DNA from: a virus
IMG/VR virus record: IMGVR_UViG_3300028837_001326
Location: 1 to 31,491 of that record
Strand: one strand, 5' to 3'
DNA length: 31,491 nucleotides
Shown piece by piece: positions 5,266 through 28,437 of the stretch; positions within the stretch are counted from its first letter, which is position 1, and every line of letters begins with the position of its first letter. The position numbers were made by a program, and so were the translations under genes. The notes beneath the pieces were generated by a model, which was not told the DNA's origin, did not search any database, and worked only from the letters and a program-made list of their open reading frames with translations.

Positions 5266-5268
5266 TCA

Positions 5269-5299: not shown

Positions 5300-5325
5300 A
5301 TAAATAAAAATGGAGAAAAAAGAAA

Positions 5326-5811
5326 ATGAGCGAAGAAACACCAACAGAAAAACCGAAAGATGAACATGGATGTATAATCGATGAAGAACTATGGAACGAG
5401 GAAACTGGAAAATGCGAGCTAATCACAACCGCTGAAACGGCACCAACTGAAACCCCAGCAATAAAAGCCACAGACGCACCACTGATAGACCGCATAATGA
5501 ATGTTATGTCAGAAGTGATGAACAAGAAACTCGGCGACTTTGAAAAGAAAATCGACGCTAAAATCGATGTGATATTGAAGGGCAAAGAAGTTGAAATAGA
5601 ACAAGCCTTGAGAAAAGGCTTTGGACTGGAAAATGACCCAGTAGTGCACATGAGCGACCTCATTGAACACGGCAGAAAACTAGCCTTAGCAAAAGCAGAA
5701 ACTGACAAGCGTACACCGGGAGCGGAAACACCGGCAGGACCTGAAGGCAACGTGAAGTTGAGTCCTGTAGACCAGATGTTTGCGAAAGCAAAGAAAGGAG
5801 AGTTAGCATAA
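5326..5811 (+). CDS. Putative capsid scaffold protein
   Basis: Predicted 161 residues between the protease and major capsid genes, the usual place for scaffold. It is acidic, helical and Lys/Glu-rich with a coiled-coil-like middle (about residues 55-110). The N-terminal segment contains C-I-I-D-E-E-L-W-N-E-E-T-G-K-C, a two-Cys motif often found at the start of phage head-assembly proteins. Scaffold guides capsid assembly and is removed by the protease. A purine-rich site precedes the ATG, and the stop is coupled by TAATG to the capsid gene. Confidence 0.75.
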   Translation: MSEETPTEKPKDEHGCIIDEELWNEETGKCELITTAETAPTETPAIKATDAPLIDRIMNVMSEVMNKKLGDFEKKIDAKIDVILKGKEVEIEQALRKGFGLENDPVVHMSDLIEHGRKLALAKAETDKRTPGAETPAGPEGNVKLSPVDQMFAKAKKGELA

Positions 5812-7133: not shown

Positions 7134-7151
7134 AAGGGAGAGCTGAAGCCT

Positions 7152-7412
7152 ATGGCACCGGCATTAGCATGGAAAAGACATAACTTCGCAGGCAAGTACA
7201 AACAAATCGTCATGAAATACACATACACAACCGGCGACACAACAGTCACCGCAGCAACTGGACTCAAAAACATAGTAGCCTATTCAATCAGTCCAACAAG
7301 CGTCACAGCTAAAGCAGTGGACTTTGCAACCGTAGCCGGCGGAACAATCACCATAACCGTGGCGAACCCGCTTGCCGCATGTTACTTGTTCGTAACTGCT
7401 TGGGGGCTGTAG
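7152..7412 (+). CDS. Small beta protein, capsid decoration candidate (copy 1)
   Basis: Predicted 86 residues, 18 bases after the capsid stop, with a GGGAG site. It is all-beta with alternating Thr/Val. It is a clear paralogue of the next gene: shared features are W-K-x-x-x-F-x-G-K, an M-K-x-T-Y segment, S-P-T-S-[IV]-T-A-K, G-G-T-[IV]-T-I-T-V and C-Y-L-F. Small beta proteins directly after the capsid gene are often capsid-stabilising decoration proteins, so that is the proposed role. Confidence 0.65.
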   Translation: MAPALAWKRHNFAGKYKQIVMKYTYTTGDTTVTAATGLKNIVAYSISPTSVTAKAVDFATVAGGTITITVANPLAACYLFVTAWGL

Positions 7413-7416
7413 CACC

Positions 7417-7680
7417 GTGGCCGTCGTAACAACATGGAAGAAAATCGATTTCGTAGGCAAATGGAAAGTAGTTCACATGAAAATGACTTATAGCGCAGCA
7501 GAGACAACAATCACTTGCAAGACAGGCTTGAAAATCATTGAAGCATTCGATGTAAGCCCAACAAGTATCACAGCCAAACCAGTTGACTACATTGCCGTTT
7601 CAGGGGGCACAGTGACAATAACAGTGAACGCCCCAGGCGCCTCGTGCTACCTCTTCCTAACAGCGTATGGCGTTGGTTAA
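7417..7680 (+). CDS. Small beta protein, capsid decoration candidate (copy 2)
   Basis: Predicted 87 residues from a GTG start 5 bases after the previous stop. It shares the whole 86-residue architecture with copy 1, including S-P-T-S-I-T-A-K and the C-terminal C-Y-L-F-L-T-A. A tandem duplication followed by divergence is the simplest explanation. The two may form a mixed oligomer on the capsid, or one may be a neck component. Confidence 0.65.
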   Translation: MAVVTTWKKIDFVGKWKVVHMKMTYSAAETTITCKTGLKIIEAFDVSPTSITAKPVDYIAVSGGTVTITVNAPGASCYLFLTAYGVG

Positions 7681-7739
7681 AAAACACCCTTTCTTAGTGA
7701 AAACGTAAGCCTCGGAACCAATGTTTTGCGGTATGTCAA

Positions 7740-7770
7740 GCTGCGATAAGGAGGCTGAAAACCACGCAGC
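7740..7770 (+). other. Stem-loop enclosing a ribosome-site-like sequence
   Basis: GCTGCG (7740-7745) pairs with CGCAGC (7765-7770), leaving an AAGGAGG sequence in the loop (7748-7754). A 19-codon frame starts at 7771 and its TGA overlaps the ATG of the gene at 7827. This could be a translational control element in the 146-base gap, or chance. Confidence 0.35.
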
Positions 7771-7826
7771 ATGACCATGCAAACATTTTCTAGTTATCAA
7801 AAACAAAAAAGGAGAAGACAAAATAA

Positions 7827-8333
7827 ATGACTGAACACCCCGACAGTGTTAGAATAGGAGTAAACCGTCTGAATCTAGTTGTGACAGGTGAACATTTAGA
7901 CCTCGCTGGAACGAGCAATTACTTTGAAACAGACCAAGCCCTGACAACCTTGCCGACTTTATCCATGGCTGTATCCAGTAGCACAGGCGTACAAGTTAAA
8001 AAATTCTTGTTAGAAGACGTGCAGTACATGATGAATCCTACAGCAGCGGAAACCTATCAACTATATCTTTTGGAAGATGCAACCGCAGATGATGTGCAGC
8101 AAACTACTGACATTGCTTTTTGGAGTCCCGCCGCGCAGGCAGACAGTGTAAACTATCGTTACAATAGCGCAGGCTATCAAGCAGCTACGGGCACAGCGGA
8201 AGTTGCACAGTATAAGTTGCCTCGCATAGTTGAGTTAGCAACGGCGAACAAACTCTATTATATGCTTGACTGGTCAGGAGCTCCCGGCAACACACCTGGC
8301 TTCATAAAGATTCGCGGAAAACTCTTAAAGTAG
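7827..8333 (+). CDS. Beta-rich virion structural protein
   Basis: Predicted 168 residues, preceded by AAGGAGAAGA at 7809-7818. It is mostly beta with low charge, many Thr/Ala/Asp, and aromatic residues spaced as in jelly-roll proteins. It lies between capsid/decoration genes and the connector, so it is probably a head-surface or trimeric decoration protein. No family is recognised. Confidence 0.6.
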   Translation: MTEHPDSVRIGVNRLNLVVTGEHLDLAGTSNYFETDQALTTLPTLSMAVSSSTGVQVKKFLLEDVQYMMNPTAAETYQLYLLEDATADDVQQTTDIAFWSPAAQADSVNYRYNSAGYQAATGTAEVAQYKLPRIVELATANKLYYMLDWSGAPGNTPGFIKIRGKLLK

Positions 8334-15023: not shown

Positions 15024-16832
15024 ATGGTTGTCTGGAGCAGTAACCCTGACTTTAAAATTGAAGTAGGCGCTACTGAACTTAGCACAGAAACATTAAGCGT
15101 TGAAGTTTTAAGAATAGAAAACGCTGTCGCCGTCGCCAAAGTTTTGTTAAACAATAAAAAATCAGTAAACTACATAGATAATATTGACTTGTTCGGCAAC
15201 TTAAAAGTGAGTTTCCGGCGTGGTTCAGCCGCGTGGACAGAAGCGTTTGACGGCATAGTGGAAGAAGTAGGTCCTAAAATGGATCGGAACACTGGCTATT
15301 TAGTTGGTGCTGTAGCTTACGGTCAAGGACGAGCGTTGCGGAACACGTTTTGTAATGCGACTTACGGAACGGAAAGCCAAAACCCAACCATTGACACGCC
15401 GGGGGAAATATGGACTGACATTGTAGATAATTATGTGGAAAAATCGTTTGGAGGCGCAGCTACAGGCTATACACTCACATTAGCATATAACAATGAAACT
15501 TTGCCTACTGTTCCTTTCATGTTTAATCCTTACTTGTGCAATTTTGATTTAATCAATCAAGTGATACAGTTAATCCAAGCGTACCGTGACGGCAGCAGTG
15601 GGCATCATTGGATAGTTGGAACAGACGGGCAGTTGCGAATTAAACGTATTGGCACAGATATTGCCGGGTGGTCTAGCTGGTGGAACACAGATCAAGCCGG
15701 CAGCACTTTAGTTGAGGGTGAAGACTTCATAAGTTACGGGTTCAGTAAACGGGCTAAAGCGAAACAGTTTGCTAATAGAATCATTTTAACTACTGACTTG
15801 CGGAAGCCAGGTTATGATTACTGGACCGAACTAGCCACTGCAGCGTTAAATACAGCATGGGATAAAACAAACGCAACGTTAACAGGTGACAATACCGAAG
15901 CTATTGTGGGTACGTATAGTTTGTTAGCGGAACCTACAGTGGATGATGGAAGCAACGCTTTATTCTGGTATCCCAGCGCTAAAACTGCGGCTTGGGATTT
16001 CACGAAGGTAGGAAGTAAAGATCATCCGCCGACGATAGAGTTTCAGTATCGTGTAAGCCGAGATTTAGGAGGCACGGGCGGACCATATCTTTCGTTATAC
16101 ACTAGCGCTGGCAATTATTACTGGTTGAACCTTTACGGCATCACCGGCAGCACTGTAGACACATGGGTTCACTGTGAAATACCTATAGGAACGTATGCGG
16201 AGAGAACCGCGAAAAATGATTTTTACGATTGGCTTGAGCAAGGAGCGCCAGATTGGAATGATATTAATTGGATTCAAATTTTATGGGCTAGCAACCATTT
16301 AGACACGGACTTACGATTGGACGACTTACATTTCAACGGTAAAATCATAAGAGAAGCATATAACAGCACAAGCATCACAGCGTATGATGAAGTGCAAAAA
16401 ATCATGCGGATGAACATTGCCGTTGAAGACTCTATGAAACAAGCTGACGATTCCGGCATGGCGGCGCGGTTGGCTTATGCTGAGTTGTTGACGGCTCAGA
16501 AAATAGCGAACACGGGCACATTAGAAACTCCGGGTATTGTAGATATTTTACCTGGTCAAATCATTCATGGACACGCTGAACAAAAAAGCGACGGAACCTT
16601 TCGGATTGATAGTGACTTGCGGATTAAACAGACTAGTCAAATGTTTAGGGAAAACGGTTTCAGAACAACCTTGCAAGTTACTGACGACTTGATTAATAGT
16701 TTTGCGAAGACGCCTGTTGAGTTGGCGAGTGTGGTTTATCAGATGGCGTTTATTGATCCGGAAGCTAAATCGTTACGGGCTACTGGTGTTGATCCTTTAG
16801 TGACGCGGTTGAGTATTGATTATCCGAGTTAA
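15024..16832 (+). CDS. Tail hub (gp27/gpD-like) with inserted beta-sandwich
   Basis: Predicted 602 residues, ATG directly after the previous stop. Residues 1-265 follow the pattern of tail/baseplate hub proteins: an N-terminal strand set (F-K-I-E-V, V-A-V-A-K-V-L-L-N-N), then a helical domain with a W-x-D-I-V type segment, then I-V-G-T-D-G-Q-L-R-I-K-R. Residues about 268-442 are a beta-sandwich insert resembling a carbohydrate-binding module, and the hub core resumes to residue 602. The hub closes the tail tip. Its 3' end overlaps the convergent leftward gene by 53 bases. Confidence 0.7.
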   Translation: MVVWSSNPDFKIEVGATELSTETLSVEVLRIENAVAVAKVLLNNKKSVNYIDNIDLFGNLKVSFRRGSAAWTEAFDGIVEEVGPKMDRNTGYLVGAVAYGQGRALRNTFCNATYGTESQNPTIDTPGEIWTDIVDNYVEKSFGGAATGYTLTLAYNNETLPTVPFMFNPYLCNFDLINQVIQLIQAYRDGSSGHHWIVGTDGQLRIKRIGTDIAGWSSWWNTDQAGSTLVEGEDFISYGFSKRAKAKQFANRIILTTDLRKPGYDYWTELATAALNTAWDKTNATLTGDNTEAIVGTYSLLAEPTVDDGSNALFWYPSAKTAAWDFTKVGSKDHPPTIEFQYRVSRDLGGTGGPYLSLYTSAGNYYWLNLYGITGSTVDTWVHCEIPIGTYAERTAKNDFYDWLEQGAPDWNDINWIQILWASNHLDTDLRLDDLHFNGKIIREAYNSTSITAYDEVQKIMRMNIAVEDSMKQADDSGMAARLAYAELLTAQKIANTGTLETPGIVDILPGQIIHGHAEQKSDGTFRIDSDLRIKQTSQMFRENGFRTTLQVTDDLINSFAKTPVELASVVYQMAFIDPEAKSLRATGVDPLVTRLSIDYPS

Positions 16833-17016
16833 ACGATACATCTTGTTCTGTAAGTTCCAACAATATTATTAAACCGCCAACCATGAACAAGATGAAACCG
16901 ACAATTAACAGAGGAAGCGCAAACATGGTTGAGCCGAGATTAACGTAGGCAATAAACATTAGAAACAAACTAACAAGTACCAAACCAAAAGGCAACATTA
17001 AACTTGAACTATCCAT
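16780..17016 (-). CDS. Small two-TM membrane protein
   Basis: Predicted 78 residues from the ATG at 17016, with GAGGAG just upstream (a GTG at 17019 is also possible). Two hydrophobic spans at about residues 8-26 and 32-52, then a polar Asp/Ser/Gln tail. It is the last gene of the leftward operon and its 3' end overlaps the tail hub gene by 53 bases on the opposite strand. The clear membrane pattern argues that it is real. Function unknown. Confidence 0.55.
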   Translation of the reverse strand: MDSSSLMLPFGLVLVSLFLMFIAYVNLGSTMFALPLLIVGFILFMVGGLIILLELTEQDVSFNSDNQYSTASLKDQHQ

Positions 17017-17073
17017 CACTCCTCAATAGACTAGAAGCGTTCCCTTATATTTTTATTTTTTGTTTTACTCTGT

Positions 17074-17223
17074 TCATATATCCATTTTCACCTCCGCACG
17101 TTTCGGTTTGTATCTTGGACATGACATTTGCATGTGAATTTCTTTTAGTTTAAGTGTGGTTTCGTAGGCTTCACAGTAGCGACTGTCACGATTTAGAAAG
17201 CGACAATATACGCAGCGAACCAT
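17074..17223 (-). CDS. Zinc-finger-like microprotein (49 aa)
   Basis: A 49-residue frame whose ATG shares its A with the stop of the nuclease-like gene (TAATG). C4-x2-C7 near the N-terminus, C17 and C35 could form a four-Cys metal site. The C-terminal third is basic. It is one of many Cys-pair microproteins in this operon. Confidence 0.55.
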   Translation of the reverse strand: MVRCVYCRFLNRDSRYCEAYETTLKLKEIHMQMSCPRYKPKRAEVKMDI

Positions 17224-17597
17224 TAGACAAGTGCCTCTTTTATCTGTTTAAACACGCGTTCCACCTCAGTTTCGCTATAACGTGGATAAGAAATCGATAA
17301 CGGTTTAACACCTTTCCGTTGCTGCAATAAGTCTCGAAGCTCTTCGTCACGCAACTGCCTATTCCGATGCACTTTTTCGCCGTCCAAATACAAGCCGATG
17401 CGCTGTTCTCCTTTTGTTAAAGTAAAATCAGGAGTAGTCTGAACTAGGCAATACGGTTTTAGCCATTCAACCCGCCACCCAGCCTCACGTAGGTCCTTGT
17501 CAGTTTTAATTTTTTTAAGAATTGAAAGTTCCATCTGACTGATTTGCGGGTGCATCCGAGCCCTACGATGTTCCCAAGAATCTTTAAACACACTCAT
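17223..17597 (-). CDS. Vsr/DUF559-like PD-(D/E)XK nuclease candidate
   Basis: Predicted 124 residues from the ATG at 17597, which overlaps the previous stop (ATGA); an upstream in-frame ATG at 17618 is less likely. P-D-F at 56-58 followed by Y-L-D-G-E-K-V-H at 70-77 matches the order of Vsr, DUF559 and EDxHD-type nucleases (Asp, then D-G-x-x-x-H). The tail is alpha/beta, ending in a helix. Such enzymes nick or cut DNA in repair, restriction or homing. The glutamate usual in DUF559 two residues before D72 is Tyr here, as can occur in Vsr-like proteins. Confidence 0.55.
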   Translation of the reverse strand: MSVFKDSWEHRRARMHPQISQMELSILKKIKTDKDLREAGWRVEWLKPYCLVQTTPDFTLTKGEQRIGLYLDGEKVHRNRQLRDEELRDLLQQRKGVKPLSISYPRYSETEVERVFKQIKEALV

Positions 17598-17794
17598 ATA
17601 AACAAGGACTCCCAACATTCCTCATGGTAATACTTCATTGTGAATTTGCCTCGGCTGCTGCATCGTTTACGCACTATCCGTTGTTTTGGAAGAATAGGTT
17701 TGCCGCAACGTCGACAGGTCAAGTCGAATCCTCTAGTGGTTAACCGTTGATGCTCCCGTTTCTGCAGGGTTGAGTGAGCTTCACTCTGCGTCAT
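17594..17794 (-). CDS. Zinc-binding microprotein (66 aa)
   Basis: 66 residues from an ATG that overlaps the previous stop (ATGA), with GGAGACGGTGAA upstream. C27-x2-C30, C45 and the pair H57/C60 give a Cys/His pattern like a small treble-clef or LIM-type finger. The N-terminal 20 residues are polar. DNA or protein binding is likely; target unknown. Confidence 0.6.
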   Translation of the reverse strand: MTQSEAHSTLQKREHQRLTTRGFDLTCRRCGKPILPKQRIVRKRCSSRGKFTMKYYHEECWESLFI

Positions 17795-17955
17795 TTCACC
17801 GTCTCCCTTTTGTTCCGGCCGCCATTCCGCAATCCTAACAAGCGAGCACAACATTTTCTGCATAGACGACTCTTCGCTACACTTGTGATTTTTGTTCCGC
17901 ACACGCGACAGTGATACCCGTTTTGCGGCGGCTGATAAACTTCCACCTCTGTCAT
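17791..17955 (-). CDS. Zinc-ribbon microprotein (54 aa)
   Basis: 54 residues with ATGA overlaps at both ends. C16-x2-C19 and C32-x2-C35 (plus C36) form a two-knuckle zinc ribbon, followed by an Arg/Lys-rich tail that could contact nucleic acid. The frame is too short for usual cut-offs, but the motif and the couplings support it. Confidence 0.6.
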   Translation of the reverse strand: MTEVEVYQPPQNGYHCRVCGTKITSVAKSRLCRKCCARLLGLRNGGRNKRETVK

Positions 17956-18131
17956 TTTACTTTTTCCTCTTTCACTTTTTTAGTGTAAATCATTCCACAT
18001 TTTGAACAGCGAAGTATTCTGTAAGGATAGACTATCCAGTCTTTCATTGAGTCATCTGCTAATCCTACTAGCAATCCATGCCAATCACTTAATTTTCCTC
18101 CACAGACTCTACATTTTTCACTTGGCGTCAT
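17952..18131 (-). CDS. Zinc-ribbon microprotein (59 aa)
   Basis: 59 residues from the ATG at 18131, one base after the previous stop; a longer frame to 18185 is not needed. C-R-V-C near residue 7 and C-S-K-C near residue 43 form a classic zinc ribbon with a 32-residue linker, followed by a Lys-rich tail. Similar to small archaeal and viral zinc ribbons of unknown role. Confidence 0.65.
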   Translation of the reverse strand: MTPSEKCRVCGGKLSDWHGLLVGLADDSMKDWIVYPYRILRCSKCGMIYTKKVKEEKVK

Positions 18132-18132
18132 T

Positions 18133-18450
18133 TTATTGTCGTCTCCAACAACTCTCTTTTCCCTGGCTAACTCGCGCAAAACCATTTTGCCTCAGGAGTT
18201 TATTAACCGTGTTCCACTCGCTTTTGTCAGTGAGGTATTCTCGCTGTCGCACTTCATCCTCGCTCACAACTTCTAGGCGATCGCGTAAGCTCACGTCTAA
18301 ATCTTTAAGAATCTCCTGGATTGGTAACGGTTTGGTGTTTTCCGTTTGTTTTTGATAGACTATGTTTTCTAAAGCTGCTACTTGACTCTGCAACTTGGCG
18401 ATGTCCGCTTTTTGTCGAGCAAACTCAACATACAAATCCTCATTACTCAT
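18133..18450 (-). CDS. Coiled-coil small protein
   Basis: Predicted 105 residues with a strong GGAGGTGA site upstream. Residues 5-35 form a heptad-like coiled coil (Leu, Ile, Val spacing with A-x-L-x-S-Q-V-A-A-L), likely oligomerising. Residues 40-105 are charged and helical, with an R-Q-R-E-Y and a final W-R-R-Q. No family is recognised. A regulatory or scaffold role in the early operon is possible. Confidence 0.6.
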   Translation of the reverse strand: MSNEDLYVEFARQKADIAKLQSQVAALENIVYQKQTENTKPLPIQEILKDLDVSLRDRLEVVSEDEVRQREYLTDKSEWNTVNKLLRQNGFARVSQGKESCWRRQ

Positions 18451-18472
18451 TTCTCAATCACCTCCTTTTTTT

Positions 18473-18670
18473 TTAAACTATCATAGATAGACAGATATTG
18501 AGCAGAAGCGATATTATTCCAAGGGATAAACATCGCCGCGCCTTTACATTGTTTCGCTTTCGGAGTTGTGTGTAAGCTAGGATTCCACCGACTATACTAA
18601 ATAGAAAAGCTATGAGAAACCACCAGTTTGAAACACTTTCTCCTTCAGGAAGCACGTCAGGAACAATCAT
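18473..18670 (-). CDS. Small two-TM membrane protein of archaeal style
   Basis: Predicted 65 residues. A short periplasm-type N-terminus with Pro/Glu, then W-W-F-L-I-A-F-L-F-S-I-V-G-G-I-L-A-Y (first TM), a basic turn L-R-K-R, and a second hydrophobic span to the end. The W-W...G-G-I-x-A-Y pattern with a K-A-R/K turn is common in small archaeal membrane domains, from memory. This is a weak but useful host hint. Its start overlaps the previous stop (ATGA). Confidence 0.6.
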   Translation of the reverse strand: MIVPDVLPEGESVSNWWFLIAFLFSIVGGILAYTQLRKRNNVKARRCLSLGIISLLLNICLSMIV

Positions 18671-18789
18671 TTATTTTTTCGCTCCTTGAAAGTTCTAGTG
18701 TGTGTGCGTGTGTTGTTCTCTACTTTACTCACTGTCTTATTTCTTACTATTCTATTCTTTCTTTCAGACTCTAACCTACTTTTCACCAT
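18667..18789 (-). CDS. Very basic 40-residue protein
   Basis: 40 residues, about 40 percent Arg/Lys, no Cys and almost no hydrophobic core. A GGAG site precedes the ATG and the stop overlaps the next start (ATGA). It may be a nucleic-acid-binding or disordered peptide. Confidence is limited by length and composition. Confidence 0.45.
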   Translation of the reverse strand: MVKSRLESERKNRIVRNKTVSKVENNTRTHTRTFKERKNK

Positions 18790-18816
18790 CGAAACATCAC
18801 TCCTTATTTTTAGTGA

Positions 18817-19110
18817 CTAGGACCTAGCTTCTGGTAATGTTAATTGTTTCATTGGCCGCCCGAAAACCTCTTTCATTTCCATATCAGTCTTCAATAAGTT
18901 AATGTAATACACGTTTTTAGTGACTGGATGAGGCGTTAACAATTTCCATTGCACACACACGCGCACGTATTTCTCGATTGTCCGTTCATCTGCTCCAATA
19001 TACATAGCGATTAATTTACCGACGTCTTCATGGTTGATTTGGCGTAGGTAGCCGTGTTTAACCATTTTTTCTATTAAGAGCAAACAAGTTTTATACGCTT
19101 GACTAACCAT
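18817..19110 (-). CDS. Winged-helix DNA-binding protein candidate
   Basis: Predicted 97 residues. The pattern G-K-L-I-A-M-Y-I-G-A-D-E-R-T-I-E-K-Y-V followed by W-K-L-L-T and a beta hairpin ending V-Y-Y-I-N fits a helix-turn-helix (about residues 30-55) plus wing (55-70). It probably regulates viral or host transcription. Its start overlaps the small membrane protein stop (ATG within N-G-stop). Confidence 0.65.
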   Translation of the reverse strand: MVSQAYKTCLLLIEKMVKHGYLRQINHEDVGKLIAMYIGADERTIEKYVRVCVQWKLLTPHPVTKNVYYINLLKTDMEMKEVFGRPMKQLTLPEARS

Positions 19111-19249
19111 TTATTTTTTCGCCCCCCCTACTGCTATACCAACACCAAATTACAAATCCAGTCATAAAAATGGCCATTGCAACCGTGCCAACGAAAAATA
19201 TTTCTAATCCTACATTATTTTCTGGATGAAATACCCCCATTATATTCAT
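19103..19249 (-). CDS. 48-residue membrane microprotein
   Basis: 48 residues; residues 14-37 are one transmembrane span (V-G-L-E-I-F-F-V-G-T-V-A... W-C-W-Y), with a short polar tail. ATGA overlap with the 12-codon gene upstream and an 8-base overlap with the regulator downstream support the call. Confidence 0.5.
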   Translation of the reverse strand: MNIMGVFHPENNVGLEIFFVGTVAMAIFMTGFVIWCWYSSRGGEKING

Positions 19250-19284
19250 GTTTTTTTCTCCTTAGCAGTCAATTTTTTAGCCAT
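19246..19284 (-). CDS. 12-codon micro-ORF with strong ribosome site
   Basis: Encodes 12 residues (Lys-rich, M-A-K-K-L-T-A-K-E-K-K-T). A GGGGAGGTTG site lies upstream and its TGA overlaps the next ATG. It may be a leader that couples translation of the downstream membrane protein rather than a functional peptide. Confidence 0.35.
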   Translation of the reverse strand: MAKKLTAKEKKT

Positions 19285-19414
19285 GATTTTCAACCTCCCC
19301 TTCGTAAGAACCGTCCGGGTAAATGTGAATTTTAAAACCAATTTCTACCCAATTACGGAAACGTGTTATAGTAGTCGCCAACCATTCGGAATGTATCGGC
19401 TTTTTTGTAGTCAT
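19277..19414 (-). CDS. 45-residue small protein
   Basis: 45 residues with alternating helix and strand, ending I-H-I-Y-P-D-G-S-Y-E-G. No Cys. A Y-P-D-G turn and flanking strands suggest a small beta-hairpin protein. Overlaps the next gene by 8 bases. Function unknown. Confidence 0.45.
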   Translation of the reverse strand: MTTKKPIHSEWLATTITRFRNWVEIGFKIHIYPDGSYEGEVENHG

Positions 19415-19424
19415 GGCTTGCTTT

Positions 19425-19553
19425 TCACCATCCTATTGAATTGAAGTAAGCCTCTTCGTAATCTTCGGGTTCAACGATTTCTTTAATTAAATCCATCTTG
19501 GTTTTGGTTTTTAGAAGTGTTTTCTTATTCGGTCTTTTCCATTTTTCACTCAT
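19425..19553 (-). CDS. 42-residue small protein
   Basis: 42 residues: a Lys-rich first half and an acidic helical second half (E-I-V-E-P-E-D-Y-E-E-A-Y). ATGA overlap with the zinc-ribbon gene upstream. No motif recognised. Confidence 0.45.
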   Translation of the reverse strand: MSEKWKRPNKKTLLKTKTKMDLIKEIVEPEDYEEAYFNSIGW

Positions 19554-19648
19554 TTTCTATATCCACACCTATCACAAACATATCCGTACCAAGCGAAACC
19601 TAGTTTGATTTTACGCATTGGGATTTTACAAAAAGGGCATTCACTCAT
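19550..19648 (-). CDS. Minimal zinc ribbon (32 aa)
   Basis: Only 32 residues, but with C4-x2-C7 and C25-x2-C28-G, a complete four-Cys zinc ribbon with an aromatic-rich linker. ATGA overlaps join it to both neighbours. It is among the smallest zinc ribbons one could expect; no target is known. Confidence 0.6.
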   Translation of the reverse strand: MSECPFCKIPMRKIKLGFAWYGYVCDRCGYRK

Positions 19649-19800
19649 TTTCTTTTTTCTCCCGCAATCCGTATAATCCGGAGCAACAACCGAAACTGAC
19701 AAACTAAGCAGTTGGCTCGGTAATAGCATTGTTTTCGGTTTCGGCCGTGATAGATTGCGTGTAATTCACGGTTTAAAAATGCAAAACCCATTTTCACCAT
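19645..19800 (-). CDS. Basic Cys-containing microprotein (51 aa)
   Basis: 51 residues from ATG 19800, or 48 from ATG 19791, which has GGTGAAA upstream. It is highly basic, with C25, C31 and C34 and a nearby His (C-Y-Y-R-A-N-C-L-V-C). An arginine-rich C-terminal helix could bind nucleic acid. The stop overlaps the next start (ATGA). Confidence 0.5.
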   Translation of the reverse strand: MVKMGFAFLNRELHAIYHGRNRKQCYYRANCLVCQFRLLLRIIRIAGEKRK

Positions 19801-19962
19801 CTACTCCGGATATTTGTCGCCGTGCGGTGGAATCTTGAATTTCATGCGGATTCGACAGTCTACAGCGCAGCCTAACTTGTGGTTGGGGCACTCGAAAAGG
19901 CAGTAGTGCAAGGCGTCCTTACTGTTTTTTAACACTCTAGTTTTCGAGATTATCAACTTCAA
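19801..19962 (-). CDS. Four-Cys microprotein (53 aa)
   Basis: 53 residues from TTG 19962, which overlaps the previous TGA (TTGA). C21, C25, C32 and C36 with H28 give a compact metal site in the middle; the C-terminus is basic. The weak start codon and short length lower confidence, but the Cys pattern fits its neighbours. Confidence 0.45.
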   Translation of the reverse strand: MKLIISKTRVLKNSKDALHYCLFECPNHKLGCAVDCRIRMKFKIPPHGDKYPE

Positions 19963-20066
19963 TTTTTCGCCTTCTCTATTCTTTTACAGAATTTTTCAAG
20001 AGATTTCATGTTCTCATCGAAATATGGATTTTTTTTAAGTTCTTTAATTATGTCATCCGCAGTCAT
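19959..20066 (-). CDS. 35-residue helical microprotein
   Basis: 35 residues, strongly helical and Lys-rich, preceded by GAGGTGA. ATGA coupling upstream and TTGA overlap downstream. No motif recognised. Confidence 0.45.
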   Translation of the reverse strand: MTADDIIKELKKNPYFDENMKSLEKFCKRIEKAKN

Positions 20067-20200
20067 TTTTTCACCTCATAAATTAACCGTGAATTCTGAG
20101 CGTAATCAAGCTGATCTACAAACATGGTGTAAACCGAATAGAACGGTGTGCTGATGAGTACGCGTTTGTCTAGGCGAACCACAAAACGGGCAATCATCAT
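20063..20200 (-). CDS. 45-residue small protein
   Basis: 45 residues: a beta-hairpin-like first half (A-R-F-V-V-R-L-D-K-R-V-L-I) and a helical second half. TAATG coupling to the previous gene and ATGA to the next. Function unknown. Confidence 0.5.
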   Translation of the reverse strand: MMIARFVVRLDKRVLISTPFYSVYTMFVDQLDYAQNSRLIYEVKK

Positions 20201-20550
20201 TAAGCCTCCTGAAATAGCTTCGCGTTAGGACGATAGACTCCTGACGTTACCGCGACGATTTTAGCACCAAATTTTAAACTGGCTGCGTTGTTTACACGTC
20301 TGTCCCAAGTGCGTTTGCCTCGGTATGGATAATTCCATTCGCGGTCGGCTCGTTTCTGCCTTACTTTTTGTTGGCATCTACGATAAATTTCTAGTAGGTT
20401 ACACGAGAACGTGTGTAATGGTAGTTTTGATTCGTTAAACAAGCCCATGACGGATTCGTTGATTAAGTTTATCATTGCTTTTTCTTCGTCTTTTGAAACT
20501 GGAACTTGTTGGGGTTGCCAGCCTGGTATCTTAACTGTTTTAGTACTCAA
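20200..20550 (-). CDS. Basic protein, possible DNA-binding
   Basis: Predicted 116 residues from TTG 20550, with AAGGAGAAAGG upstream, overlapping the previous gene by 11 bases. Residues 20-65 are helical. Residues 70-110 contain R-G-K-R-T-W-D-R-R-V-N-N-A-A-S and end G-V-Y-R-P-N, an alpha-beta tail. High Arg/Lys content fits nucleic-acid binding. No family is recognised; a winged helix is one guess. Confidence 0.55.
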   Translation of the reverse strand: MSTKTVKIPGWQPQQVPVSKDEEKAMINLINESVMGLFNESKLPLHTFSCNLLEIYRRCQQKVRQKRADREWNYPYRGKRTWDRRVNNAASLKFGAKIVAVTSGVYRPNAKLFQEA

Positions 20551-20761
20551 TTTTTCCTTTCTCCTTCAACTCGGCTAATTTGACTTTAGCTTTCTGTTTT
20601 TGGACTGCTTTCTTACAAGCTGTGCAGTTATCGGAACTATCATCATTTCCTGGCTCTAGTTCTCCGAAAAACAACCATTTTCCGCAAAGAGAACGGCTAT
20701 CTATGAAGTAGTGTGCTTTTCTTGCGTTGCTTGGAAATCCCCACCCTTCTTTTTCACTCAT
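20540..20761 (-). CDS. Cys/His small protein, phage-type zinc motif (73 aa)
   Basis: 73 residues from ATG 20761 (ATGA with the gene before); a longer in-frame start at 20800 is less likely. Pattern H-Y-F-x-D-x-x-S-L-C-G-K-W, then C-x2-C-K-K, as in small phage proteins that carry one His and three Cys. The C-terminal 25 residues are a Lys/Glu helix. It probably binds zinc; function unknown. Confidence 0.6.
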   Translation of the reverse strand: MSEKEGWGFPSNARKAHYFIDSRSLCGKWLFFGELEPGNDDSSDNCTACKKAVQKQKAKVKLAELKEKGKIEY

Positions 20762-20922
20762 TGGGTTTTCACCTTGTTCAGCCTGTAGCAATGTTGGCAT
20801 TCCACAAGCTTCACATCGCCATTCTGCACTAGGACTTTGGGATCACGCATTCGCCAACCGCAACTGCCACAAATCAACTGACCGTCCGTTTTGTCCTGGT
20901 AAGCCTTGTAGAGGTCACTCAT
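20758..20922 (-). CDS. Zinc-ribbon microprotein (54 aa)
   Basis: 54 residues with C18-x2-C21-G and C42-x2-C45 joined by a beta-rich linker, a standard zinc ribbon. ATGA overlaps at both ends. Similar to its neighbours at 17791 and 17952 in architecture, not clearly in sequence. Confidence 0.6.
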   Translation of the reverse strand: MSDLYKAYQDKTDGQLICGSCGWRMRDPKVLVQNGDVKLVECQHCYRLNKVKTQ

Positions 20923-21062
20923 TCTAGGTGTGCTCTCCCCAACAGCTCTTTCAACTTTAAAATTTGTTCACGGTACGTTTCAGGTTTATACTTGAAACTG
21001 CCAACTTCTTCTGCGCTCCACAAGTCGCTGCGTTTAACGATGATGGTGGCTTTCTCCGTCAC
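20919..21062 (-). CDS. 47-residue small protein
   Basis: 47 residues from GTG 21062, which lies 3 bases after the repressor stop and follows the AAGGAGG at the end of that gene. One strand (A-T-I-I-V-K-R) then a charged helix. ATGA overlap with the next gene. No motif recognised. Confidence 0.5.
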   Translation of the reverse strand: MTEKATIIVKRSDLWSAEEVGSFKYKPETYREQILKLKELLGRAHLE

Positions 21063-21065
21063 TTT

Positions 21066-21215
21066 CTAAGCCTCCTTCAATTCTCGGTTCATCCTTTGGA
21101 TGACGGCTTGCCGTATGAACTCTGAACGGTTTAGAAACATTTTTTCGCAGAGATCGTCAAGCTGTTTCAGTAATGTTTTGTCGAAGTTGATGCCGACAAG
21201 TTTGTTTTTTCCCAT
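21066..21215 (-). CDS. Ribbon-helix-helix (Arc/CopG/MetJ-type) repressor
   Basis: 49 residues with the full RHH pattern: a short N-terminal strand with polar/basic residues (K-L-V-G-I-N-F), then helix 1 (K-T-L-L-K-Q-L-D-D-L-C-E-K), a turn with N-R-S, and helix 2 (E-F-I-R-Q-A-V-I-Q-R-M). It would dimerise and bind an inverted operator through the strand. The imperfect palindrome at 23232-23247 is a candidate site. TAATG coupling to the previous gene fixes the start. Confidence 0.8.
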   Translation of the reverse strand: MGKNKLVGINFDKTLLKQLDDLCEKMFLNRSEFIRQAVIQRMNRELKEA

Positions 21216-21367
21216 TATTTCGTCTCCTTGCCGAAGAGTCTTTTAAGCGCGTCTAACGCTTCACAATCATACGGATAATTTTCACAGTAATTAGAGAATG
21301 GGCAGTCGTCGCAAATCTCATTGTTTACTACACGCACTCGGAGTTTTTCGCGCTCGTGGCTGTTCAT
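21215..21367 (-). CDS. Cys-cluster microprotein (50 aa)
   Basis: 50 residues from ATG 21367 with a GGAGG site. C-D-D-C near residue 19, then C27 and C34, four Cys within 16 residues (C-x2-C-x4-C-x6-C), too close for a zinc ribbon. Iron-sulfur or zinc are both possible. It lies directly before the RHH repressor. Confidence 0.55.
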   Translation of the reverse strand: MNSHEREKLRVRVVNNEICDDCPFSNYCENYPYDCEALDALKRLFGKETK

Positions 21368-21465
21368 GGTCGCGCCTCCATCTGTGCTATTGGATAACCG
21401 CATTGTGGGCACCTGTCGGGGCTTAAGCGTAGTAGCCATCTACACTGGCAATATGAACATTTCAA
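21364..21465 (-). CDS. 33-residue zinc ribbon next to integrase
   Basis: 33 residues from TTG 21465, overlapping the integrase TGA (TTGA). C3-x2-C6-x-C8 and C19-x2-C22-G make a zinc ribbon. The stop overlaps the next ATG. A long antisense frame overlaps it, but the motif and couplings favour this strand. Confidence 0.5.
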   Translation of the reverse strand: MKCSYCQCRWLLRLSPDRCPQCGYPIAQMEARP

Positions 21466-22388
21466 ATTATCACTTCCTTTTTTTGTTTGTAAAATCGACA
21501 ACCACTACAAGCTTCGCAACTACTCATTTCCAGTTTGAATTTGCATGTGGGCTCGTGAGTGCATTTGCTGCAATACTCTTCGTAAAAACTAGAGGGTGCA
21601 ATCTCTTTTTTGCCGTGTTCAAATTCCGACCTTACATAGGGATTTTGCAGTCGGTCATAATCACGTTTAATATCCTCAGGAAAGACGAAACGCGCTACAT
21701 AAAAGGTGGTTGTGGCTAAGTTCGTATGCCTTAACATTCTACGTACAGTCTCAATGCTGGCTGGTTCCGGACGGTTTCCTTGTTCGTCTGGTTTAGGATA
21801 CATCAGGCTTGCCACAAAATAATGTCTGAGAAGACGAGGGCTGACACCTTTAACGCCTGCTGCTAAACCGATGCCGTGAATTAAATACCAGACTGCTACT
21901 CTGCTTAGGGGTTTATGTTGCAACCGAATTTTCCAATTATCTTCACGAGTGAAAACAGGACCTTCCGTTCGGTCGACAATTAAGTCTTTAATGAATTGCA
22001 ACGTCAAAACGTCTGTGGGCACTGGAGAGAACTTTTTCTTTTTGCTGTCTAAAACTTGCAATTCACCCAGCTCAAAATCGATGTCTTCAATGTTTAATGT
22101 GCAAATTTCACCAGTGCGTAAACCGCTTTTCATGGGTACACGAATTAACAAGAAATCGCGTAGTTTACGGTGTACACGCGCATAATCGTGAACGTGCTCG
22201 ACATCGGAGCGTCTAATAACGATGGCTTCTCCCTTGCCATGCCACTCTCCCCTCCCACCACCATTAGTCATAGTGATGCCCTTTCTGGAGAGAAAATAAG
22301 TCTTAACGCGGATCGACCACTTAACACTTGCGCAAATCTTTACTGTGCGGGTTTGGGAGGGAGATCGGTTTAAGTGTTCTTGGCGCAT
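21462..22388 (-). CDS. int: Tyrosine recombinase (integrase) with C-terminal Cys cluster
   Basis: Predicted 308 residues from ATG 22388 (TAATG coupling); ATG 22271 gives 269. Catalytic-type residues: R91 (S-G-L-R-T-G-E), a Lys run at 116-119, R188 (L-L-R-H-Y-F), H221 (L-R-H-T-N) and nucleophile Y230 (T-F-Y-V). The His usually three residues before the second Arg is Arg here (R185), so motif II is atypical. Residues 273-297 add C-x2-C-x5-C-x8-C-x2-C-x2-C, an extra metal-site-like tail. It would integrate the circular genome into the host chromosome, making the virus potentially temperate. It lies within the leftward operon. Confidence 0.85.
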   Translation of the reverse strand: MRQEHLNRSPSQTRTVKICASVKWSIRVKTYFLSRKGITMTNGGGRGEWHGKGEAIVIRRSDVEHVHDYARVHRKLRDFLLIRVPMKSGLRTGEICTLNIEDIDFELGELQVLDSKKKKFSPVPTDVLTLQFIKDLIVDRTEGPVFTREDNWKIRLQHKPLSRVAVWYLIHGIGLAAGVKGVSPRLLRHYFVASLMYPKPDEQGNRPEPASIETVRRMLRHTNLATTTFYVARFVFPEDIKRDYDRLQNPYVRSEFEHGKKEIAPSSFYEEYCSKCTHEPTCKFKLEMSSCEACSGCRFYKQKKEVII

Positions 22389-22648
22389 TACTTCTTCCTT
22401 CCTTTTCCTCGTCTTCCCCTACCTTTTTTAGAAATCGCGTATTTGTCGCCGTGATAAAGAACTAAGCCGTGAATATGTAGCCAAGCTAAAGTTTCTAGGA
22501 TTCGCTGTTGGGTCGCGCCCCAATCTGCTAACTCATCATATAATTCGTCAACTGTTTTTTCTCTTTCAAGCAAATGGTCAAGAATCATGCAATGAGAAAC
22601 TTCTAATCGTGGATACGGCTCTGCGGAGTTAGAATGTTTTTGGTTCAT
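22388..22648 (-). CDS. Winged-helix regulator candidate
   Basis: Predicted 86 residues. M-I-L-D-H-L-L-E-R, D-E-L-Y-D-E-L-A, R-I-L-E-T-L-A-W-L-H-I-H-G-L-V and a hairpin L-Y-H-G-D-K-Y-A-I fit a winged helix, as in MarR/archaeal regulators. The C-terminal 13 residues are a Gly/Arg/Lys tail. TAATG couplings upstream and downstream. It may control lysogeny with the integrase next to it. Confidence 0.65.
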   Translation of the reverse strand: MNQKHSNSAEPYPRLEVSHCMILDHLLEREKTVDELYDELADWGATQQRILETLAWLHIHGLVLYHGDKYAISKKGRGRRGKGRKK

Positions 22649-22827
22649 TATGAAGAAGCCTCCAAAATCTCCGTAATGAAATCATACACAGCAACGCTTT
22701 TCGTGTTTGTTGGATAAACTCGCATTTGCCTTAGTTCTTTCTCGAAACCCTCAATCCATTTTAGAACACAGCTTAATTCATTTGCAGTGTCAATACACTT
22801 TTTGAGTTGTTCTAACGAGTACTTCAT
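22648..22827 (-). CDS. 59-residue helical protein
   Basis: 59 residues, helical, with two Cys and the ending I-L-E-A-S-S. The 3' end encoding E-A-S-S and the next start are part of a 19-base repeat shared with the end of the first gene of the operon. Its start overlaps the previous stop. No motif recognised. Confidence 0.5.
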   Translation of the reverse strand: MKYSLEQLKKCIDTANELSCVLKWIEGFEKELRQMRVYPTNTKSVAVYDFITEILEASS

Positions 22828-23024
22828 TAGATAGCCTCCAAAATTCCGTTAACGCGTACGGCTCCGTGCGGTGTGTTCCAGAACAAAACGCGTCGCCATT
22901 TCGCCCGTTTAGCATATTCTCGTGCGTGTTGCTCACAAAAATGATTGCCACTGTGATGATGAGTTGCTAGTTTTCCGCATTTTTGGCATCTTACAGCTTC
23001 ATGTGTAATGTTAAGCTTTGTCAT
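22827..23024 (-). CDS. Zinc-binding microprotein (65 aa)
   Basis: 65 residues from ATG 23024 (TAATG). C-Q-K-C-G near residue 13, then H-H-H and C-E-Q-H (H-F-C-E-Q-H) give a Cys/His cluster like a B-box or small treble clef. An R/K-rich helix follows. Its N-terminal L-N-I-T-H-E also occurs in the upstream gene, encoded by an 18-base exact repeat. Longer GTG/ATG starts exist but are less likely. Confidence 0.6.
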   Translation of the reverse strand: MTKLNITHEAVRCQKCGKLATHHHSGNHFCEQHAREYAKRAKWRRVLFWNTPHGAVRVNGILEAI

Positions 23025-23215
23025 TATGAAGAAGCCTCCTCCTTCCACTTTAGCGCAAGTTTGACGTATTCATCGGCTAATCTAGCAGCCTCTTCGTCAG
23101 TCAACAAAAGTAAGTCTTGAAAATACTTTTTCGCTGTAGCCCTGCTCATGATTAGTGGTTCATGTGTAATGTTAAGGGTTGTATAGCGTTTGTATGTTGT
23201 GGTTAAGTCGGACAT
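23024..23215 (-). CDS. First gene of leftward operon, helical protein (63 aa)
   Basis: 63 residues from ATG 23215. The start lies about 10 bases after a predicted transcription start with no ribosome site, so translation may be leaderless, as is common in archaea. Residues 14-19 read L-N-I-T-H-E, shared with the next gene. The rest is helical and acidic, ending E-E-A-S-S. Function unknown. Confidence 0.55.
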   Translation of the reverse strand: MSDLTTTYKRYTTLNITHEPLIMSRATAKKYFQDLLLLTDEEAARLADEYVKLALKWKEEASS

Positions 23216-23231
23216 GGTTGTCAATTTACTA

Positions 23232-23247
23232 AGGGTACGTATGCCCT
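23232..23247. promoter_or_regulatory. Imperfect palindromic operator candidate
   Basis: AGGGTACGTATGCCCT: the outer four base pairs match, with one more in the centre arm. It lies between the leftward TATA box and the predicted start, where a repressor would block transcription. The RHH protein at 21066 is a candidate binder. Confidence 0.4.
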
Positions 23248-23254
23248 ATATATA
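23247..23254 (-). promoter_or_regulatory. Leftward TATA-like box
   Basis: TATATATA on the minus strand in an A/T-rich stretch with an A-rich BRE-like segment upstream. The expected start about 25 bases downstream falls near 23225, about 10 bases before ATG 23215. This fits an archaeal leaderless promoter. Not tested. Confidence 0.5.
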
Positions 23255-23291
23255 TTTTATGTATTAAAGATATATGTTGTCTTAACACTCT

Positions 23292-23306
23292 CGAAAACCT
23301 TAAAAG
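23292..23306 (+). promoter_or_regulatory. Rightward promoter candidate
   Basis: CGAAAAC followed by CTTAAAAG on the plus strand resembles a BRE plus TATA box. Start would be near 23328, about 70 bases before the ATG at 23396. Other A/T-rich sites in 23256-23276 are also possible. Confidence 0.35.
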
Positions 23307-23328
23307 GGCAACTCACCATAGAAACCCA

Positions 23329-23371
23329 TGAGTTTAGTCAACTCTTACTCTATCCACTGAGTTACGCTCCA
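23329..23371 (-). other. tRNA 5'-half-like sequence, attP candidate
   Basis: Read on the minus strand, this segment has a U8-A9-like pair, a D-stem ACTC/GAGT with a GG-containing 8-base D-loop, and a 4-bp anticodon-type stem (GAGT/ACTC) around a 7-base loop. No T-arm or acceptor pairing follows. Integrases often use tRNA pieces as attachment sites, so this could be attP, but it lies about 1 kb from the integrase. It may also be chance. Confidence 0.3.
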
Positions 23372-23395
23372 CTCTAAATGGACGCGGCTTAGAAA

Positions 23396-23623
23396 ATGGC
23401 ATCAAAAAGAGGAAAACGATCTCCAGAATCCCTAGCAAAACGATTTATTTTAGACACTAGCTTCCACGACAGAAACAACGCGGAAACCGTCACCTTGGTT
23501 GACGACGTAATGGTTGTGGCTTATGTGAATAGTGTGTATCCTGATCAGCCGCCGCCAACGATTGATGTTGTGAGAGGGGAAGTTATTATTGACAGTCGTG
23601 GGGAGGGTTCATTCCAAAAATGA
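23396..23623 (+). CDS. First gene of rightward operon, unknown (75 aa)
   Basis: Predicted 75 residues with a basic N-terminus (K-R-G-K-R-S) and a beta-rich second half. No recognised motif and no strong ribosome site. The stop overlaps the next ATG (ATGA). It may be an early rightward regulator. Confidence 0.5.
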   Translation: MASKRGKRSPESLAKRFILDTSFHDRNNAETVTLVDDVMVVAYVNSVYPDQPPPTIDVVRGEVIIDSRGEGSFQK

Positions 23624-23733: not shown

Positions 23734-24150
23734 ATGAGAAAATTCTGGATTTTCATGGCTATCCTATTCGCTGTAGTGTTCATAATTGCGTTGGCTTGTG
23801 CTGTGTCGCCGGATTGGTTTAGACCGTTGTTTGTCAGCGGAGCCATTTCCGCATTCGGTACAGTCGCTATAACCATTAACGACACGTGGACCGGTATTGC
23901 CGCGAATCCAGTTTATCAACAATGGCACATGCTCATCTGGTTCATAGGCGGAATCATAGGCACAATAATATTCACGAAAGTGTTGTGGCCTAGACGACCA
24001 CGCTGGAAAGCAGCCCCGTCAATACCTGTAATTCATCAACATCGGATAGAAACAGATTTGCCGCATTCAGTTAGTGAGCCTGTTCCTGAAACCGTAGCTA
24101 AAACTAAGCCTAAAGAAGAAGTTAAAGCTGAAGAGGCTGTAGCGACATGA
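23734..24150 (+). CDS. Two-TM protein next to GTPase
   Basis: Predicted 138 residues from ATG 23734 with GGAGGTGA upstream (a GTG at 23713 is less likely). TM1 about residues 4-24, TM2 about 66-86, then a 50-residue tail rich in Pro, Glu, Lys and Val, probably cytoplasmic. The stop overlaps the GTPase ATG by 4 bases, so the two are made together. A membrane anchor or target for the GTPase is the likely role, by inference. Confidence 0.65.
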   Translation: MRKFWIFMAILFAVVFIIALACAVSPDWFRPLFVSGAISAFGTVAITINDTWTGIAANPVYQQWHMLIWFIGGIIGTIIFTKVLWPRRPRWKAAPSIPVIHQHRIETDLPHSVSEPVPETVAKTKPKEEVKAEEAVAT

Positions 24151-25112
24151 GCATCTTCAAGAAAGTTGTAGATCGTTTCCAACCGAAAGCGCAGCCTATC
24201 ATGCCTACACAATTGTACGCGTATAAAACACGGTTCGCCATGCTAGGTCCTGTAGGCGCCGGAAAAACAACAGTGTCTGCCTTAACTGTTTTAGCGGCTC
24301 AAGTGTCAAGCAGTGAAATCTTACATTTTCGCTGTCGCGTATTAGAAGGCACAAGCAGCGTCCTAGAAGCGGTTAGCAGTTTAAGACAGGGACATTTTCC
24401 AGCGAAAACACCCGCGCACGCACGACATGCAGCTGAGTCCGGTTTGTTGTTGCGTCATAAAGGGTTTTGGGGCGAAAAAAAGATTCAAGTACCCATCGTA
24501 GACATCGCCGGTGAAGACATAGAATTAATGATTCAGCATTACCGCACAGGCTCGACCCCTATTGGACGCGCAGCCTATTCATTAGCGAAAAGTCTCATCA
24601 GCTACGTTAAACAAAGCGACGGCTACATCCTGTGTGTTGATGCAAGCAAAGCATTAGGCGTTAAAGGGTACAATCAACCATCCAGCACGGTGCAGGTGGA
24701 CCCGGATAACGATTTACACCGGATACTGTCAGAAATTTTCATACATAAAGAACGCAGCCGAGGCAACACGATTAAAGGCATCGCCGTCGTTATTACAAAA
24801 TGGGATACGATTGAGCCTTACGCGAGCAACTGGGGCATGGACATTTACGATGAATCAGGCGAAGGCTTAAAAGAATTCATGGACGTGTGCTTCCCCAACA
24901 CAAGCATGATTTTAAAGGATTATGGTTTTGGTTTTGGCGCGAACATTAAAGTGTTTCCAAGCTACATCGCAGTGGAACGGGATAGCACAGGTGAAGTGAA
25001 GCGGTGGCCGGATGAGAAAGAAAAGATCGTTGTTAAGAACAGGCGTATGCCATCGTGTGACTTACAGAGCTACATGAATTTGATTCAGTATTTACTGAGT
25101 TTTGCAACGTAG
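24147..25112 (+). CDS. P-loop GTPase
   Basis: Predicted 321 residues. G1/Walker A is G34-P-V-G-A-G-K-T at 34-41, G3 is D119-I-A-G122, and G4 is T217-K-W-D220, all canonical. The segment G-Y-I-L-C-V-D-A-S near 159-167 is the strand before the G4 region. This order and length resemble TRAFAC-class small GTPases with extensions, such as the DO-GTPase 2 type described in conflict systems; that assignment is tentative. It should bind and hydrolyse GTP and act as a switch. Neighbours are membrane proteins, suggesting membrane remodelling, egress or defence/anti-defence. GTPases are rare in tailed viruses. Confidence 0.8.
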   Translation: MSIFKKVVDRFQPKAQPIMPTQLYAYKTRFAMLGPVGAGKTTVSALTVLAAQVSSSEILHFRCRVLEGTSSVLEAVSSLRQGHFPAKTPAHARHAAESGLLLRHKGFWGEKKIQVPIVDIAGEDIELMIQHYRTGSTPIGRAAYSLAKSLISYVKQSDGYILCVDASKALGVKGYNQPSSTVQVDPDNDLHRILSEIFIHKERSRGNTIKGIAVVITKWDTIEPYASNWGMDIYDESGEGLKEFMDVCFPNTSMILKDYGFGFGANIKVFPSYIAVERDSTGEVKRWPDEKEKIVVKNRRMPSCDLQSYMNLIQYLLSFAT

Positions 25113-27369: not shown

Positions 27370-28437
27370 TTGCAAAAAGCTTTACAAATTACAGTTAATC
27401 CTACATATCAAGAGCTGTTACCAAGTATTTCAAAGGAAGAATATGAAGCTTTAAAACAATCCATTGAAACCGAAGGACAGCATTTCCCTATAACAGTAAA
27501 CCCACAAAACCAAATTCTTGACGGTCACAACCGCTACAGAATTTGTCTGGAACTTGGATTAGAGCCCAAGTGTGAACTGAAAAGTTTTCGTAATGGGCTC
27601 TTGGAAAAGAAGTTTGTTATAGAAGCTAACTTGCGAAGGAGGCACCTCAACAAGTTTCAGAAAGCAGAGCTGGGTTTTCCTCTTTTGGATATTGAGACAG
27701 AACTAGCAAGAGAAAGAATACTGAATGGAACCCTAGTGCCATTTGACGCTAGGGGTAAGTCAAGTGACAAAGTAGCCAAAACAATCGGGCTTTCGACACG
27801 CACCTTTGAGAGAGCTAAGGTAATTATTGAGAAGGGTTCGCAAGAACTGAAGGAAAAAGTTCGCAAGGGTAAAGTTAGCATATCCTATGCTTACCAAGTG
27901 ATTAACACGGCGGAGAAACACGAAAATCCACCTCCACTTCCAACCGGTCAATTCGACGTATTATATGCCGATCCACCTTGGAAATACAAATATGTCGCAC
28001 TCGACGGTAACGCTGAAACACAATACGCTACGATGCAATTGGAAGATATTTGTAAGTTAGAGATTCCATCTGCAAAAGATGCCATTTTATTTCTTTGGGC
28101 AACTAATCCATTGTTAGAAGACGCTTTTGAAGTAATGAGGGCGTGGGGTTTTACATATAAAACAAACATTGTTTGGGTTAAAAGTGGATTGGGAATAGGA
28201 CATTATGTTAGGGGCGATCATGAATTACTATTGATAGGTAAAAAAGGAAACATACCGCCCCCAATAACTAAAAATCGACCTTCTTCGGTTGTAAAAGCTC
28301 CCAAAAACCGTCATAGCAAGAAACCAATAGAACTGTATGCCCTAATTGAGAGAATGTATCCGAACCGGAAATACTTAGAATTGTTTGCTCGGGAGAAACG
28401 GCAAGGTTGGCGTTCTTGGGGTTTAGAAGTTGAATAG
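27370..28437 (+). CDS. ParB-like domain fused to MT-A70 adenine methyltransferase
   Basis: Predicted 355 residues from TTG 27370 with a GGAGA site. Residues 10-95 are a ParB/Srx-type N-terminal domain (I-L-D-G-H-N-R-Y-R at 49-57), with a helix-turn-helix-like segment about 130-175. Residues 195-350 are MT-A70: the catalytic D-P-P-W is at 201-204 (Y-A-D-P-P-W-K-Y), with H-S-K-K-P at 315-319 and L-E-L-F-A-R-E at 336-342. It should transfer methyl groups to N6 of adenine in DNA, guided by the ParB part. Likely roles are protection from host restriction or regulation. Confidence 0.85.
   Translation: MQKALQITVNPTYQELLPSISKEEYEALKQSIETEGQHFPITVNPQNQILDGHNRYRICLELGLEPKCELKSFRNGLLEKKFVIEANLRRRHLNKFQKAELGFPLLDIETELARERILNGTLVPFDARGKSSDKVAKTIGLSTRTFERAKVIIEKGSQELKEKVRKGKVSISYAYQVINTAEKHENPPPLPTGQFDVLYADPPWKYKYVALDGNAETQYATMQLEDICKLEIPSAKDAILFLWATNPLLEDAFEVMRAWGFTYKTNIVWVKSGLGIGHYVRGDHELLLIGKKGNIPPPITKNRPSSVVKAPKNRHSKKPIELYALIERMYPNRKYLELFAREKRQGWRSWGLEVE

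Follow-up and report, generated by a model that had tools for sequence, protein, structure and literature searches.

A compact minus-strand arm of coupled small open reading frames around the integrase of a probably archaeal tailed virus

Organisation of the minus-strand arm

On the minus strand of the virus record IMGVR_UViG_3300028837_001326, the whole 31,491 nt of which is referred to here as the window, 30 clean open reading frames (ORFs) run leftward from position 23215 to 16780 and cover almost every base (Table 1). The initial annotation had described this arm as a 6.4-kb operon of about 31 overlapping microproteins, mostly of 30-70 residues, and the tiling by 30 ORFs agrees closely with that description. 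Leaving aside the integrase (308 aa), the ORFs are 32-124 aa in length; the full set has a median of 54 aa, and 22 of the 30 are of 70 aa or less. Neighbouring genes overlap mostly by 4 or 1 bases. When ORFs of at least 30 aa are counted, a single chain of 29 occupies 6,052 of the 6,436 nt, compared with a mean of 510 nt and a maximum of 1,267 nt in 200 dinucleotide shuffles. Start/stop couplings of the ATGA or TAATG type number 20 (shuffle mean 1.9, maximum 7), and g06 is coupled to the stop of the integrase by TTGA. Both the near-total coding and the start/stop overlaps that had been claimed are thus far above the shuffled controls. Read on its opposite strand, the DNA yields a chain of 4 ORFs covering 579 nt, with one coupling. 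Shine-Dalgarno-like motifs precede 23 of the 30 starts, as against 12% of 352 other minus-strand start codons, and at several junctions GGAGGCT stands just a few bases ahead of TAATG, which places the ribosome site inside the end of the preceding gene.

Table 1. Features of the minus-strand arm and the region upstream of it (positions in the window).
Feature	Position	Strand	Length (aa)	Description
Conserved upstream region	23216..23420	-		77% identical at same place in relative
g01	23024..23215	-	63	N-terminus common to relative, partly to g02; shuffle Z 7.1
g02	22827..23024	-	65	CxxC and His/Cys cluster
g03	22648..22827	-	59	conserved
g04	22388..22648	-	86	possible winged helix (Pfam below cut-off)
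g05 tyrosine integrase	21462..22388	-	308	C-terminus Cys-rich; PF00589
g06	21364..21465	-	33	zinc ribbon; DZR match below cut-off
g07	21215..21367	-	50	4 Cys
g08 ribbon-helix-helix protein	21066..21215	-	49	PF01402 above cut-off
g09	20919..21062	-	47	conserved
g10	20758..20922	-	54	double zinc ribbon-like
g11	20540..20761	-	73	three Cys
g12	20200..20550	-	116	72% identity to relative
g13	20063..20200	-	45	
g14	19959..20066	-	35	conserved
g15	19801..19962	-	53	four Cys
g16	19645..19800	-	51	three Cys
g17	19550..19648	-	32	zinc ribbon; marginal Lar-like match
g18	19425..19553	-	42	
g19	19277..19414	-	45	
g20	19103..19249	-	48	single hydrophobic stretch
g21	18817..19110	-	97	possible winged helix; 79% identity to relative
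DNA-conserved block	18700..18830	-		covers most of g22 and its leader
g22	18667..18789	-		ORF in DNA-conserved block
g23	18473..18670	-	65	two hydrophobic stretches
g24	18133..18450	-	105	ribosome site GGAGGTGAT; ~70% identity to relative
g25	17952..18131	-	59	two CxxC
g26	17791..17955	-	54	two CxxC; conserved
g27	17594..17794	-	66	CxxC...HxxC
g28	17223..17597	-	124	predicted Vsr-like PD-(D/E)XK nuclease fold
g29	17074..17223	-	49	conserved Cys/His positions
g30	16780..17019	-	79	membrane peptide; 54-nt gap upstream

Two repeats lie at the head of the arm. A 31-nt direct repeat, 84% identical between its copies (22991-23021 and 23152-23182), takes in the part of g01 that encodes LNITHE, together with the beginning of g02, and a 19-nt exact repeat (22645-22663 and 23021-23039) falls across two gene junctions.

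It had also been suggested that gene predictors would miss about half of these ORFs, and 17 of the 30 are recovered by a simple caller that relies on codon usage, has a 25-aa limit and was trained in part on these genomes. About half of the arm ORFs are without relatives and poorly supported by codon usage: among 17 ORFs without homologues the proper frame scores best by codon usage in 9, and their summed log-likelihood is 3.8 as against 55 for the conserved set. With a codon usage that is barely coding-like, the ORFs without relatives are supported by their tiling, coupling and ribosome-site motifs.

Upstream region and conserved DNA block

Conservation of the region ahead of g01 is strongest over the 60 nt at 23248-23307 (92% identity). 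A TATA-like sequence, AAAATATATATA, lies at 23247-23258 and a divergent plus-strand gene begins at 23396. Read by eye, the region is probably the archaeal-type promoter of the leftward operon. A minus-strand sequence at 23347-23365, GTAACTCAGTGGATAGAGT, just upstream of the integrase operon, looks like a tRNA D-arm and may be what is left of an attP site; no tRNA was detected here by ARAGORN or Rfam, and the sequence is absent in the relative.

Within the block at 18.7 kb, 58 of 60 bases (18746-18805) are identical to the relative, compared with a mean of 69% in homologous coding DNA. The ORF that it covers, g22, has a dN of 0.23 and a dS of 0.19 with no third-position excess, a pattern suggesting that g22 is conserved as DNA rather than as protein and is probably not a protein gene. 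The predicted RNA fold of the block is no more stable than that of shuffles, and the likeliest reading is of a DNA site or unstructured regulatory stretch, a candidate cis element. Conserved antisense ORFs in the block were considered as genes and rejected as a by-product of DNA conservation, their third-position excess being nil in one frame and slight in the other. It might be supposed from g22, the clear case, that some of the other ORFs also arose as by-products of conserved DNA elements, but the pattern fits one ORF and in every remaining compared pair with a defined dS, dS exceeds dN; as a wider explanation it is improbable.

Conservation in related viruses

Most of the codon-level evidence is supplied by one relative, IMGVR_UViG_3300008516_000131 (G001), a circular genome of 35,653 bases in which the integrase and 12 further arm genes keep their order. 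The spacing of g09 to g08 and to the next gene is identical there, and the upstream promoter region and the 18.7-kb DNA block are common to both viruses. They differ in that the terminase and major capsid regions are without match and in that the G001 arm is of 11.5 kb, with longer genes. Searches for related arms with g12, g21, the promoter and the 18.7-kb block matched G001 only; the search with g29 also found matches in two further genomes (G005 and G009), and g27 has relatives in two other genomes, where they are located on the other arm.

Conservation of the reading frames, which the initial annotation had proposed as a check, was found in part: 14 of the 30 frames have relatives and in most of these dN is well below dS, but g22 fails. 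Against G001 the dN and dS values are 0.22 and 2.39 for g12, 0.15 and 1.20 for g21, 0.19 and 1.08 for g24, 0.13 and 0.95 for g14, 0.17 and 0.80 for g29, 0.43 and 1.40 for g26, 0.32 and 1.46 for the integrase and 0.35 and 1.33 for g09. The signal is weaker for g01, g03 and g08, and g28 yielded no dS estimate against G001.

Two of the small genes correspond to parts of larger proteins. The product of g15 matches the last 47 aa of a protein of 128 aa in the relative, and that of g28 the C-terminal domain of proteins of 329-465 aa in four relatives. This suggests turnover by whole coupled cistrons, and single domains appear to persist as coupled microproteins. The same matches, together with the weak codon usage of the non-conserved ORFs, might be taken to mean that the arm consists mainly of decayed or fragmented genes, remnants of larger proteins left open by chance after deletion. 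This is improbable, as most of the ORFs carry ribosome-site motifs and exact start/stop couplings, g15 itself has a dN of 0.32 against a dS of 2.66 and several conserved short genes are near-equal in length in the relative.

The equivalent arms of five relatives carry 2.98-3.64 genes/kb and 0.70-1.53 CxxC genes/kb, compared with 4.66 and 1.86 here, the relatives being counted by automatic chain and the present arm by manual choice. By this measure it is the densest among the six viruses compared and, since the codon-usage caller misses nearly half of its ORFs, the small-protein content of environmental archaeal viruses is probably underestimated.

Cysteine pairs and protein families

The small proteins of the arm contain 16 CxxC pairs, compared with a mean of 3.0 and a maximum of 9 in within-protein shuffles, and cysteine makes up 3.5% of arm residues as against 1.2% in the plus arm. 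Twelve proteins have at least three cysteines, a number that is ordinary given this richness (pooled shuffle mean 9.9). The 12 Cys clusters listed in the initial annotation hold up as CxxC proteins in 11 cases but not in g15, which has the pattern C-x3-C-x6-C-x3-C, resembling that of its relative, and no CxxC. In g29 the residues C4, C7, C17 and H30 are kept in four genomes. From these patterns we infer that proteins of the arm bind zinc, g11 and g16 being weak candidates because they have only three cysteines each. The idea that the zinc proteins arose through tandem duplication was rejected, pairwise scores between them being weak.

Significant family matches in the arm are those of the integrase, g05, to the PF00589 catalytic domain (E 4e-16, above cut-off) and of g08 to the RHH_1 profile (26.8 bits, cut-off 20.5). 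Matches below cut-off were obtained for g04, g21 and the zinc ribbons g06, g10, g17 and g25; g04 and g21 are possible winged helices on our own reading of these matches. The structure model of g12 is helical and of low confidence. For g28, which has a below-cut-off match to a restriction-endonuclease-like family, a model built from five relatives (pLDDT 77) aligns over 90-105 residues with Bax1 (Z 10.2), NGO0050 (Z 9.9) and Vsr (Z 8.9). The PD-(D/E)XK fold dominates its Foldseek matches, none of which is below E 0.001, and the model assigns g28 a Vsr-like nuclease fold of this type. At the predicted catalytic site D57, D72 and H77 are invariant in five sequences and the usual lysine varies. 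A marginal match of g17 to Lar-like restriction alleviation in PHROGs (E 0.007) may reflect just a generic zinc ribbon, and PADLOC gave weak PprRE and Csf1 matches on the arm.

Genome and host setting

The ends of the record share an exact 50-base overlap, so that it very likely represents a complete circular genome of ~31.4 kb. Its plus arm carries packaging, capsid and presumed tail genes. The best-scoring neighbour of the terminase (terL) is that of the haloarchaeal virus HJTV-4 (28% identity), a genome scan with terL also matched bacterial records at 22-28% identity, the capsid protein was without match among the phages searched, and the integrase matched bacterial or unassigned phages only. 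The terminase, the TATA-like conserved promoter and the likeness of the arm to haloviruses suggest an archaeal host, and the virus is probably temperate and tailed. Searches for tRNA genes and Rfam families found none, and a paper on Bathyarchaeia viruses mentions neither the present contigs nor zinc proteins.

The kin of the capsid-region genes are IMGVR_UViG_3300032062_000061 and IMGVR_UViG_3300031772_000182 whereas those of the arm are other viruses, and the arm therefore behaves as a separable module. The capsid protein of the first of these records is 95% identical to the present one; its contig stops close to where the divergent plus-strand gene begins, and its own arm therefore lies outside the record. 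Elsewhere on the plus strand, a P-loop protein at 24147-25112 is weakly similar to Double-GTPase families, the match to DO-GTPase2 (E 6e-5) falling below cut-off; it was found in most of the larger related records at 26-74% identity and was without match in the phage collection. An MT-A70 adenine methyltransferase (E 6e-32) is encoded at 27370-28437; its N-terminal part appears ParB-like by eye, a reading without Pfam support.

Function of the arm

The ORFs are closely packed, preceded for the most part by ribosome-site motifs, partly conserved at the codon level and recurrent in relatives, and we infer a single transcript, early timing and a host-directed role. Our favoured model, held with reasonable confidence, is that of the early/lysogeny arm of a tailed virus that is temperate and probably archaeal. 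The conserved promoter near 23250 would drive a long leftward transcript, and translation of its cistrons, initiated at Shine-Dalgarno sites and through start/stop coupling, would give the integrase, DNA-binding regulators and small, mostly zinc-stabilised or membrane peptides. The most likely partners of these peptides would be proteins and nucleic acids of the host or the virus, by binding which they would redirect the cell and control integration, and rapid turnover would come about by the gain and loss of coupled cistrons or single domains around colinear conserved anchors. There may be more than one transcript, in view of the g22 block and of the gap ahead of g30, and g30 is perhaps driven by its own promoter.

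The initial annotation had seen a host-takeover or anti-defence island next to the integrase. Of this, the clustering of small, often zinc-type proteins is supported, and the arm surrounds the integrase and does not merely adjoin it. A host-takeover or anti-defence role is plausible and fits the position, the conserved upstream region, the small size and the fast turnover; no host-directed function occurs among the families matched by arm proteins, and for many members ordinary regulators and integration functions are equally possible. In its stronger form, that of a dedicated island made up mostly of inhibitors of CRISPR, restriction or toxin-antitoxin systems under the control of a small repressor (g08 or g21, for instance), the proposal is possible though somewhat unlikely. 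Position, size and turnover are like those of early-gene clusters in archaeal viruses that proved to contain inhibitors (PMC11065993), and the marginal Lar-like match of g17 points the same way, but known inhibitors are matched below significance only, the arm also houses an integrase, a nuclease fold and regulators, and CxxC peptides serve ordinary regulation too.

The early/lysogeny model could be extended to a modular cassette in which zinc-stabilised domains, some derived from larger proteins, are swapped as coupled cistrons. We regard this extension as unlikely; if true, a single promoter would supply the viral lineage with a rapidly changing stock of peptides for host binding and anti-defence. 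Concrete targets for work on function are g09, g12, g14, g21, g24, g26, g29 and the 18.7-kb DNA block.

Relation to known early regions

Small zinc-finger proteins are known in Haloferax, where, according to the published reports (PMC10716476, PMC6562870), micro-proteins of less than 70 aa carry paired C(P)xCG motifs similar to those seen here; these are host genes, whereas the present set forms a viral operon. SIRV2-type early and anti-CRISPR clusters are, like the present arm, composed of small, fast-evolving genes, and lie in an early-expressed region (PMC11065993), but they consist mostly of single genes with their own promoters where the present arm is one tightly coupled run.

The HF1-like viruses have 21-23 CxxC genes per genome, mostly of less than 100 aa, and a structural region without any (PMC7230728), and many CxxC proteins of less than 100 aa outside the structural arm are found here as well. 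Early regions of this group (HF2, Serpecor1 and Hardycor2) consist, like the present arm, of dense overlapping small genes (PMC7230728). In HF2, positions 3758-7969 contain 18 genes, 7 of them labelled CxxC, or ~4.3 and 1.7/kb, which is close to the present arm (PMC7230728). HF2 differs in having a 77.7-kb linear genome, its own DNA polymerase and an integrase located elsewhere, and a tblastn search with the arm proteins against HF2 positions 1-45000 gave no match better than E 0.03. The resemblance to HF1-group early regions would thus be one of organisation, a common lineage being without sequence support. Given the five related arms and the similar density in HF2, the present arm appears to be an extreme, compact example of an already known type of region.
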